NCBI RefSeq assembly: GCF_000376445.1 | Contig: NZ_AQXI01000001.1 | Span: forward strand, 342,962 to 406,961 | Direction of reading: 5' to 3' | DNA length: 64,000 bases | Source: Haladaptatus paucihalophilus DX253 | Lineage (GTDB): Archaea; Halobacteriota; Halobacteria; Halobacteriales; Haladaptataceae | Part shown: one piece after another, positions 33,318 through 48,356 of the stretch | Layout of the letters: the number at the start of each line of letters is the position of its first letter | Numbering within the stretch: the stretch's first letter is position 1 | Program-made: the position numbers and the translations under genes | The notes under the pieces: generated by a model | Told to the model about the DNA's origin: nothing | Seen by the model: only the letters and a program-made list of their open reading frames with translations | Database searches by the model: none

Positions 33318-33752
33318 ATGCAACCCCTATCATTACTCGGACCGGTCGACGCGCTCGAACCGTACGCCGGGTTCGTCGTGTTCGGTCTCGTGTTGGTCAA
33401 CATGCTGACGCGTATCCTCGCGTCCCGTAACTACGAGAAACAGGCAAAAGACGACGACCGCGAAACGCTGAGTCGCTGGATTCCCCACGAGGTCAGCAAC
33501 ATCCTGCTGGTCCTCTCGGCGTTTTACTTCCTGACGCTCCACCACCACGGCGGTATCGTCCTCTCGACGCTCGTCCTCGGTCTCGTCATCACCGACTTCT
33601 TCGAAGTGGAGGCCCGCTCGGTCGAGCTGCGTCGTGGACTCCCGCTCGAAAAACCGAAAGCGGCCGTCTTGGCGTCCGTGCTCGTCCTCATGTACATCGG
33701 CTACGAGACGGTCTTCTTCATCATCAAGCCGATCTGGGACGCCGTTATCTGA
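33318..33752 (+). CDS. DUF7313-like four-helix membrane protein
   Basis: 144 residues with about four membrane helices (PYAGFVVFGLVLVNMLTRIL; VSNILLVLSAFYFLTL; LSTLVLGLVITDFF; AAVLASVLVLMYIGYETVFF). A charged cytoplasmic loop YEKQAKDDDRETLSRW lies between the first two. I recognise it as a haloarchaeal conserved family (DUF7313, from memory) of unknown function. Monocistronic. Confidence 0.75.
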   Translation: MQPLSLLGPVDALEPYAGFVVFGLVLVNMLTRILASRNYEKQAKDDDRETLSRWIPHEVSNILLVLSAFYFLTLHHHGGIVLSTLVLGLVITDFFEVEARSVELRRGLPLEKPKAAVLASVLVLMYIGYETVFFIIKPIWDAVI

Positions 33753-34143
33753 AGCGGCTCCGTTCGGTTTTCCCTTTCTCGTTTCTCACATCCCGCTCCC
33801 GAGTGATGGGGTTTCGATTTTTCGTGGAGTCCAGTTTCGAGGTCGGACCTCGGTCGCAATCGGAAGGTCCGACGCGTTCCGATTGCGTGTCCGAGCGAAC
33901 GGTATCCGCTCGAATACCACCGAAACGGTAGACAAGATACTGAATACGGCGGAGAGAGTACTGAATATGGAAAATAGTACTGTAATACAACGAAAAGTAC
34001 TGAATGGTACTAAAAAGCACTGTTAAATACTGAAATATACTACTTCTTCGAACCGCTCGTTTCTATCGACGAGACACCACGCCGCGTTCGCGCCGCTCAC
34101 GGCGTCACGAACGTCGAAAAAGACGGAAATCGCGTCGTGGAGT
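33753..34143. repeat. Convergent spacer with a 10-bp phased TACT array
   Basis: No gene is visible. From 33938 to about 34047 the motif TACT(G)AATA recurs: cores at 33938, 33959, 33978, 33998, 34008, 34018 (CACT), 34028 and 34038, i.e. spacings of 21, 19, 20 and then 10, 10, 10, 10 bases. The array is AT-rich in a GC-rich genome and lies between the 3' ends of two convergent genes. The remaining spacer is ordinary sequence. Confidence 0.7.
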
Positions 34144-34677
34144 TCAGTCTTTGCGTTTCACCACGTCCCCGAGGGTGTAACTCCCGGTCGAACTGCCGCC
34201 GCTCCACTCCTCGTCGTCCGCCCCGGCGCTACCGACGGTGAGGCTGATGTCGAGTTTTTTCTCCAGTTTCCTTTGCACGCTGTCGCTCGGCAGGATGTCG
34301 CCGTGTTCGAGCTTGCTGATGAGGCTCGCCTTCTCGTTGAGTTCCTTGGCGAGGTCCTCTTGACTCAGACCGGTCGATTCGCGCGCGTTTCGAATTCGGT
34401 CGTCGTAATCCGGCGCGATTTCGTCCATGTCGTCGAACATGTCCCTCCGGCGCGAGCGCGACCCGCCGGATGACCCCGCACTGCCAGTGCTGGTGCTCGA
34501 ATTGCCCGAAGACGAGGACGAAGACGTCGAATACTTGGTCGAGGTGGAGGAGGTCTGTTGTGTCTTGACTTCCGTGCCGAAGTCGGCACAGTTGTCACAC
34601 ACGTCGAGTTCCGCACCTTCGACCTTGATAGTCTTGGGAGACGCCGTTTCGGCACCGCACATCTCACACTGAACCAT
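34144..34677 (-). CDS. Multiprotein bridging factor 1 homologue
   Basis: 177 residues. N-terminal zinc ribbon (C-E-M-C near residue 4 and C-D-N-C near 28), a Ser/Gly-rich linker with a run of Ser (about 48-75), then an XRE-type helix-turn-helix (YDDRIRNARESTGLSQEDLA, KELNEKASLISKLEHGDILP). Archaeal MBF1 proteins associate with ribosomes and influence stress response. The linker is longer than in most archaeal homologues. Confidence 0.9.
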   Translation of the reverse strand: MVQCEMCGAETASPKTIKVEGAELDVCDNCADFGTEVKTQQTSSTSTKYSTSSSSSSGNSSTSTGSAGSSGGSRSRRRDMFDDMDEIAPDYDDRIRNARESTGLSQEDLAKELNEKASLISKLEHGDILPSDSVQRKLEKKLDISLTVGSAGADDEEWSGGSSTGSYTLGDVVKRKD

Positions 34678-39553: not shown

Positions 39554-41169
39554 CCGACCGAACCCCCTCCGAGCGTGCCGACGTCTGTGTCATCGGCGCG
39601 GGTCCGGCGGGCGCGTTGGTCGCTCACACGCTCGCGCGACGCGGCCACGATGTCGTCGTCCTCGAAGCGGGCGAGCGATTCGAATTCGAGGACCGAAAAC
39701 GTCGGATGGAGCGAGCGATTCGCCCCGGCGACGACGACCGCTCGGTCTGGGACATGGGCGGGCCGCGGGACGCCTACACCTCGACCGGCGAGCAGTTCTA
39801 TCCGCTGAACCGCGCCCGCGTCAAGGGGGTCGGCGGCAGCACGCTCCACTGGCAGGGAATGGTCATGCGCCTGCACGAATCCGATTTTGACGCGTGGCCC
39901 ATCAGCTACGACGACCTTCGACCGTACTACGCCCGCGCCGAGTCGCAACTCGGAGTCGCGGGTGCGGACGACAACCCCTTCGCGCCGCCGCGCGAGGAAC
40001 CGTTTCCCCTGCCCGCGTTCCGTCCCTCCCACAGCGATTCCATCTTCGCCGACGCGTGCGAGTCGCTCGGCGTCGCCATGCACTCCGTGCCGAACGCGCG
40101 CAACTCCGAACCGCACGACGGACGAAGCGAGTGCGTCGGCTACGGCACCTGCAAACCGGTCTGTCCCTCCGGCGCGAAGTACGGCGCCGACGTCCACGTG
40201 CGGAAGGCCGAGGAGGAAGGCGCGCGCGTCATCGACCGCGCGGCGGTGCAACGCCTCGAACACGACGACGAGGGAAAGCGCATCGAAGCCGCGGTGTACG
40301 CCGCGCCGGACCACGGGAACGGGGGAACGGGAAGCGTCGAACACCGACAGGAGGCCCGCGAGTTCGTCCTCGCCGGTGGCGGGGTGGAGATACCCCGCCT
40401 GCTTCTCCTCTCGAAATCGAAGACGTATCCCGACGGACTGGCGAACACCAGCGGCGCGGTCGGCCGCTACTTCATGGACCACCTGTACGCGGGGATGGGT
40501 GGACGAATCGACCGGCGCACCCGACAGCACCGCGTCGGCTTCATCACCAGCGAATGTCACCAGTTCTACGAGGACCCCGCGCGGGGAACGAAGGGAATCC
40601 CGGCGGCCGACGACGCCGAGTACGACCGCCTGAAACTCGAATTCTCGAACTACGCGGGACCTACGCCGGTCGGCCTCGCCCTCGACGGGGACGAGTGGGG
40701 CGACGAGCTGCTTTCGACCATCCGCGAGGAGTACGGCAACTCGGTCGGCATGGGGGCGCTCGCCGGTCAGAAACCGCGAAAGGAGAACCGAATCGCGCTC
40801 GATTCCGGAACGACCGACGACCACGGCAACCCGGTTCCTCGGATTCACTGGCGAGTCGACGAGCGGACGAAGGCGACGCTCCGCCGGGCGAACGAGATTC
40901 AGCGGGACATCCTCGACGAACTCGGCGCGGAGGTGACGTGGCACGTCGGCCCCGAAAACACCGGCCCGGCGTTTCACCACATGGGGACGACCCGGATGGG
41001 AACCGACCCGAAAGCGAGCGTGGTGAACGCTCGCCTCCGCACCCACGACCTGCAGAACTGCACCATCGCGTCGAGCAGCGTCTTCGTCACCAGCGGGGCG
41101 ATGAACCCCACTCTCACCATCGCGGCCCTCTCGCTGAAGGCCGCGGACCACGTTCACGAGCGGTTGTGA
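39550..41169 (+). CDS. GMC-family FAD oxidoreductase, large subunit
   Basis: 539 residues. FAD motif CVIGAGPAGALVAHTLARRG at residues 11-30, GMC-type KGVGGSTLHWQGMV, a ferredoxin-like Cys pair GYGTCKPVCPSGAKYGAD, and a C-terminal active-site segment FHHMGTTRMGTDPKAS followed by TSGAMNPTLTIAALSLKAAD. Family members oxidise gluconate, sugars or alcohols and pass electrons to a cytochrome or quinone. It has no signal of its own and pairs with the Tat-borne small subunit. The 21-bp repeats begin at its stop codon. Confidence 0.9.
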   Translation: MTDRTPSERADVCVIGAGPAGALVAHTLARRGHDVVVLEAGERFEFEDRKRRMERAIRPGDDDRSVWDMGGPRDAYTSTGEQFYPLNRARVKGVGGSTLHWQGMVMRLHESDFDAWPISYDDLRPYYARAESQLGVAGADDNPFAPPREEPFPLPAFRPSHSDSIFADACESLGVAMHSVPNARNSEPHDGRSECVGYGTCKPVCPSGAKYGADVHVRKAEEEGARVIDRAAVQRLEHDDEGKRIEAAVYAAPDHGNGGTGSVEHRQEAREFVLAGGGVEIPRLLLLSKSKTYPDGLANTSGAVGRYFMDHLYAGMGGRIDRRTRQHRVGFITSECHQFYEDPARGTKGIPAADDAEYDRLKLEFSNYAGPTPVGLALDGDEWGDELLSTIREEYGNSVGMGALAGQKPRKENRIALDSGTTDDHGNPVPRIHWRVDERTKATLRRANEIQRDILDELGAEVTWHVGPENTGPAFHHMGTTRMGTDPKASVVNARLRTHDLQNCTIASSSVFVTSGAMNPTLTIAALSLKAADHVHERL

Positions 41170-41290
41170 GCCGTCCACGGGGGGCCGTGAACCGTCCACG
41201 GGGGGCCGTGAACCGTCCACGGGGGGCCGTGAACCGTCCACGGGGGGCCGTGAACCGTCCACGGGGGGCTATGAACTTCCCACAGGGGCC
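41167..41290 (+). repeat. 21-bp tandem repeat at the 3' end of the GMC gene
   Basis: Five near-perfect copies of a 21-base unit of the type CCGTCCACGGGGGGCCGTGA, then degenerate ones (CTTCCCACAGGGGCCGTGAG and beyond). Each unit can form a small hairpin CACGG/CCGTG. The first copy starts in the GMC stop codon, and the array ends before the convergent DUF4349 gene. A role in termination or as a variable-number repeat is inferred. Confidence 0.85.
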
Positions 41291-41325
41291 GTGAGCCGTC
41301 CGCGAGCGACTGCGAGCCGTCTTCC

Positions 41326-48011: not shown

Positions 48012-48182
48012 CGTGAGTGACTCACGTATGGATGAACAAACGACCGACTCGCTATTTGTTATGCGCCGTCTGAAAGCGATGCTAGAATCCCAGTTCGCGT
48101 TTGAGCGAATTCGCTATCCGCTATCGACTATTTATTATGATTGGAACCTTCGCGGTGCTCATCGTGTGGTTCGCGGTAAAAT

Positions 48183-48356
48183 GGGGTCGGAGGGATTTGA
48201 ACCCCCGATCGACTGATATCTCCGGTGCGCCTCGGAACTCCAGAGGGTCGTCAACGCGGGCGATGATCAGTCACCCGCTCGGTATATCAGCTGGAGTTTC
48301 GTCCCGGGCGCGTAGCCTCTGGAGTCAGTCGCCATCCCTGGCTTGGCCACGACCCC
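48183..48356 (-). tRNA. tRNA-Trp (anticodon CCA) with 101-base intron
   Basis: Minus strand. 5' exon 48356-48319 ends CTCCAG, 3' exon 48217-48183 begins ATCAGT. Joined, they give stem ACTGA/TCAGT with loop CTCCAGA, so anticodon CCA and an intron at position 37/38. Acceptor GGGGTCG/CGACCCC. The mature length is 73 without CCA. Exact splice points are inferred from the folding of the anticodon arm. Confidence 0.93.
48218..48318 (-). ncRNA. Intron of tRNA-Trp acting as box C/D guide RNA
   Basis: Within the intron CTGATAT, complementary to ATATCAG of the 3' exon, is followed by A then CCGA (variant D' box). CTCTGGAGT, complementary to ACTCCAGAG across the 5' exon-intron border, is followed by T then CCGA (D box). 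Counting five bases upstream of each box gives U39 and C34. Possible C and C' boxes are GGGACGA and TTGACGA. This fits the known haloarchaeal pre-tRNA-Trp guide for 2'-O-methylation. Confidence 0.8.

Follow-up and report, generated by a model that had tools for sequence, protein, structure and literature searches.

According to our analysis, the 64,000-nucleotide stretch under study (the window; contig C1, 342962-406961, of the 4.3-Mb haloarchaeal source genome, hereafter G000) carries one of 27 helically phased arrays of a short motif that are scattered over this genome. We read them as dispersed protein-binding arrays on which a putative cooperative binder would serve a chromosome-scale role, be it architecture, tethering, or segregation, and we give this reading a probability of about one half. 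The set looks like undescribed docking sites for a DNA-organising protein, and no published description of such arrays was found among open-licence papers. To our knowledge, site-specific organisers of haloarchaeal chromosomes are hardly known. The nucleoid-type role that the initial annotation of this DNA had listed among the possibilities fits both the 27 dispersed copies and their over-dispersed spacing, as far as can be judged from the sequence.

The array of the window spans 33938..34047 on the plus strand and is built from the unit YACT-R-WWW-NN with a period of 10 (profile match E 4.7e-6). The initial annotation had placed eight TACT cores at 33938, 33959, 33978, 33998, 34008, 34018, 34028, and 34038, and all of them are where it put them, with the one at 34018 reading CACT, not TACT. 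The successive core spacings are 21, 19, 20, 10, 10, 10, and 10, and the densest part, 33998..34047 (plus strand), comprises five units in a row, each exactly 10 bp from the next (zero-mismatch match at G000:C1:376959-377002). The claimed phasing at 10 and 20 bases is real: the 110 bp (67% A+T) contain nine YACT words, of which seven fall in one 10-bp phase, and shuffling these bases 20,000 times never reached this number. Likewise, the pattern TACT-N6-TACT-N6-TACT with at most one mismatch has three matches in the window, each inside the array, and is absent from 100 dinucleotide shuffles.

The array lies, as initially described, between convergent genes, with the 3' ends of a DUF7313 membrane protein gene (33318..33752, plus strand; Pfam E 8e-61) and of an HTH_3/MBF1-like transcription factor gene (34144..34677, minus strand) facing it, and this convergent setting is incidental. 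The segment 33829..34095, which bears the array, is without counterpart in the congener G008, where its flanks are only 35 bp apart. Within this segment, 50 bp ahead of the array, there is an 11-bp inverted repeat at 33855-33887 (CGCAATCGGAA / TTCCGATTGCG, with an 11-base loop). Among the RNA families searched across the window, only tRNAs were detected, and one of these matches, of 175 bases at 48182-48356 on the minus strand, is probably an intron-containing tRNA gene. The window also contains a 21-bp tandem repeat of 6.5 copies at 41166-41301, which is possibly coding.

A genome-wide search at 10-base spacing, which had been proposed as a check, returned 72 matches to a degenerate five-unit pattern in the whole of G000 against 0 for the reversed control, and exact TACT-N6 units occur four in a row 5 times and three in a row 18 times, again with 0 in the reversed control. 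The genome-wide counts derive from pattern and profile searches, the profile being sequence-only and made from 27 arrays, 23 of G000 and four of the congener G007. The profile search of G000 retrieved 27 loci, 24 on C1 (the 2.95-Mb chromosome) and 3 on C3 (a 364-kb second replicon), with a clear gap from the background and no additional intermediate candidates, while it detected none on C2 (492 kb), C4 (317 kb), C5, and C6. When a four-unit pattern was run over all genome and viral contigs, chance matches in AT-rich bacterial DNA were among the matches listed.

Across the 27 arrays, the unit is Y-A-C-T-R-W-W-W-N-N with an exact period of 10.0 bp, where the manner of picking units constrains positions 1-5 and leaves the others free. 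Of 342 distances between YACTR pairs in the range of 5-45 bp, 278 are exact multiples of 10 (80, 89, 53, and 56 pairs at 10, 20, 30, and 40 bp, respectively), and no other distance is represented by more than 8 pairs. Nearly all motifs point the same way (183 along the array strand, 9 against it), and the arrays have no flanking sequence in common. In G000, the spacers differ from unit to unit within one array while YACTR is fixed, which is what selection on the core, and not its copying by slippage, would produce. A short motif that recurs once per helical turn, at exactly 10 bp and with free spacers, is the signature that cooperative side-by-side binding would be predicted to leave, and the exact lattice together with the variable spacers is consistent with the earlier suggestion of a cooperative protein on one face of the helix. 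In the mechanism that we propose, a putative sequence-specific DNA-binding protein would contact YACTR once per helical turn, adjacent subunits would stack cooperatively on one helix face, their stacking would yield a short filament of nucleoprotein, about 50-120 bp long, and this filament would most likely act at the scale of the chromosome and not switch transcription locally. We infer the protein binder, its cooperativity, and its chromosome-scale role from sequence patterns.

The placement of the arrays points in the same direction. According to the called genes, every array of G000 is intergenic, in convergent, divergent, and tandem settings alike, with its strand independent of the direction of transcription; the gene calls come from a home-made caller, and some of the neighbour calls are antisense shadows. 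No shared theme was seen among the flanking genes. The role as a terminator, which the initial annotation had considered, is hence disfavoured, and we reject a terminator or convergent-gene element because arrays are present in divergent and tandem spacers as well. Neighbouring arrays on C1 are separated by 46.6 kb or more, whereas a random arrangement would be expected to give 7.4 gaps shorter than this (P about 2e-5, or 3e-4 after dropping the three weakest arrays), and the gaps range from 47 to 354 kb, so that the spacing is not regular. Of the 25 steps between successive arrays, 19 involve a change of strand (P 0.016 by permutation); both the spacing and the strand-order tests are post hoc and treat C1 as a closed circle. 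Array density is 0.81 per 100 kb on C1 and 0.82 on C3, and the confinement of all 27 to these two replicons has a P of 8e-4 by size. C2 resembles ordinary large plasmids, whereas C3 appears to be a second replicon of old and stable standing, given that several Haladaptatus and Halorussus species have C3-like DNA on replicons of 300-550 kb. Plasmid similarity also suggests that G000 is close to these two genera. The separation of the arrays by at least 46.6 kb, their indifference to gene orientation, and their absence from the plasmids would make a chromosome-scale role the more plausible one. As further observations on their surroundings, the array at about 2017.0 kb of C1 (L119) has an orc1/cdc6 gene nearby, whose 3' end is 200 bp away, and a GC-rich dispersed repeat of ~75 bp (e.g., L117:5490-5570), which recurs many times in each of the nine genomes of the genus, has several copies within 450 bp of TACT arrays.

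When 391 genomes of the order were searched at E 1e-4, only G000, G007, and G081, a Halorussus-like member of another genus of the family, proved to be array carriers; the search was strict, recovering only 14 of the 27 arrays of G000 itself, and weaker sets elsewhere may be missed. One weak array of G081 lies on a contig of 342,099 bp. Poor conservation in sister species, which the initial annotation had named as a possible refutation, was encountered in part. In G008, which is about 89% identical here, three of the four arrays tested are absent (those of the window and at 435 kb and 493 kb), each as a clean length difference of 185-270 bp with respect to G000, whereas the version of the fourth, at 10.2 kb, is alignable but eroded. 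For the three absent segments, a gain in G000 and a loss in G008 would both fit. On the other hand, two array sites are common to G000 and congeners, and the motif family goes far beyond chance. The site at 178.9 kb is shared by G000 and G007, with flanking genes 81-83% identical, and there the G007 array shows no alignment to that of G000 except for the 10-bp lattice. Since some congeners live without arrays, their function would be dispensable or replaceable. With 27 strongly patterned sites in one species that are decayed or missing in close congeners, the question becomes directly testable, and array-bearing and array-free species offer a natural comparison.

As to the binder, a 102-amino-acid MarR-like winged helix-turn-helix (wHTH) protein is deemed a tentative candidate. 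Its gene (C1:1519032-1519337) lies 23 bp downstream of the array at C1:1519.0 kb, and this promoter array, one of the 27, is kept in the congeners G002, G004, and G005, in which there is no other comparable array. The protein has weak Pfam matches to MarR_2 and DUF7343; its plasmid relatives are annotated as MarR-family regulators, and a PemK/MazF toxin gene comes right after one of them, while in G000 no toxin gene is directly downstream. Direct repeats in the promoters of this family are enriched at periods 10 (z 6.7) and 9 (z 4.8) and not at periods 7-8 and 11-14, with z values inflated by the close relatives in the sample; this suggests that the family may recognize repeats in helical phase in the promoters of its own genes. 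Triplets of TATTAC/TATTGC-type repeats at exact 10-bp spacing also directly precede the start codon of MarR-type antitoxin-like genes (L393, L394, L396, L397, L399, L491, and L495). The wHTH is only a candidate because G007 and G081 bear arrays without a close homologue (best matches 33% and 29%, respectively), which contradicts its acceptance as a proven binder despite the promoter array and the operators of the family. G007 has a cleanly empty wHTH locus, and the locus is empty in G003 and G006 too. In G008, reading by eye placed an AbrB-like and PIN-like (VapBC-type) pair at this locus (L460, C22 around 407-408 kb).

Three other explanations were weighed against phased protein-binding arrays with a chromosome-scale role. 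We consider it unlikely that the arrays serve a transcription-factor regulon as its operators, that is, phased direct repeats occupied by a repressor or activator beside the genes it controls: the wHTH promoter site and its retention in three congeners, together with the phased repeats of related antitoxin-type promoters, would agree with this, but many arrays, that of the window included, lie between two 3' ends or distant from start codons, the neighbouring genes have no common theme, and a 47-kb exclusion distance is not predicted. The clean differences in G008, instead, are what would be expected if the arrays were traces of mobile elements, namely transposase-binding subterminal repeats, and target immunity would account for their over-dispersion. 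In addition, IS607-type elements of other haloarchaeal genera (L068, L069, L075, L076, L077, L078, and L082) have, immediately upstream of tnpA, four TACT units spaced at exactly 10 bp, which likely form a TnpA-binding array resembling that of the window, and four 9-bp direct repeats in helical phase are bound by the TnpA of IS1535 (PMC6188088). However, IS607 TnpA was not found in G000, G007, and G081 (E 1e-3), the arrays have neither shared ends nor an inverted partner array, their neighbours differ in each spacer, and 183 of the 192 motifs are on one strand. A mobile-element origin is quite unlikely on these grounds, and an IS607 remnant as the main explanation is rejected, as array-bearing genomes are without TnpA.

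The possibility that the arrays represent minisatellites in slow decay, or DNA maintained for its intrinsic curvature alone, with no specific binder, is very unlikely in our opinion. It draws on the many near-identical 19- or 29-bp units in the arrays of G081, which indicate that local slippage does add units there, and on the intrinsic curvature, somewhat above that of shuffles (wedge model; mean z -1.9). The earlier proposal that the phased elements bend DNA survives in the form of this modest mean, while several arrays are not bent; strong intrinsic curvature was discarded, and the inconsistency of the predicted curvature speaks against the explanation. Moreover, the spacer positions vary within single arrays of G000 while YACTR is constant, and neutral repeats would neither share motif and phase at 27 unrelated places nor avoid each other. 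Returning to the phased protein-binding arrays, we can envisage a more specific version, which we regard as doubtful: a lineage-restricted haloarchaeal chromosome-organising system, in which filaments on phased YACTR arrays would provide spaced anchor points, possibly direction dependent, as array strands tend to alternate, and perhaps formed by an antitoxin-type winged-helix protein turned architectural. If an antitoxin-type protein does bind, a toxin-antitoxin operator would have been turned into a chromosome-wide mark.

Several known systems share features with the arrays. ParR/parC-type plasmid centromeres consist of direct repeats in tandem, spaced by about one helical turn and cooperatively bound, with one centromere per plasmid, beside parM/parR, whereas G000 has 27 dispersed arrays. 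Intrinsic terminators and convergent elements would be confined to gene 3' ends, and the arrays are not. Haloarchaeal toxin-antitoxin operators of the MarR-type wHTH / PemK-MazF kind are 9-10-bp phased direct repeats at the gene's own promoter, and one TACT array sits at such a promoter; the 27 arrays overall are, however, away from any such toxin-antitoxin operon, and in G007 and G081 arrays are present where a close homologue of the gene is not. With the ends of IS607-family elements, the arrays have in common the helically phased direct repeats, on which filament nucleation has a worked example in IS1535 TnpA (PMC6188088). Such ends adjoin tnpA and are paired in opposite orientation, while at the G000 arrays there is no element and no TnpA (MerR-HTH plus serine recombinase), and there are hardly any motifs on the opposite strand within 100 bp. 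The SegB protein of the SegAB partition system of Sulfolobales recognizes about 30-50 sequence-specific sites over the chromosome and is tied to its organisation and segregation (PMC12284271). Its site is a 13-bp palindrome, TCTAGA-S-TCTAGA, mostly intragenic and clustered near segAB (PMC12284271), whereas the G000 arrays are intergenic, over-dispersed, and made of asymmetric direct repeats, YACTR-N5, with 183 versus 9 motifs by strand and no palindrome around AGA-S-TCT. Both sets are scattered over an archaeal chromosome, and, by analogy, SegB is deemed the nearest archaeal precedent in function.
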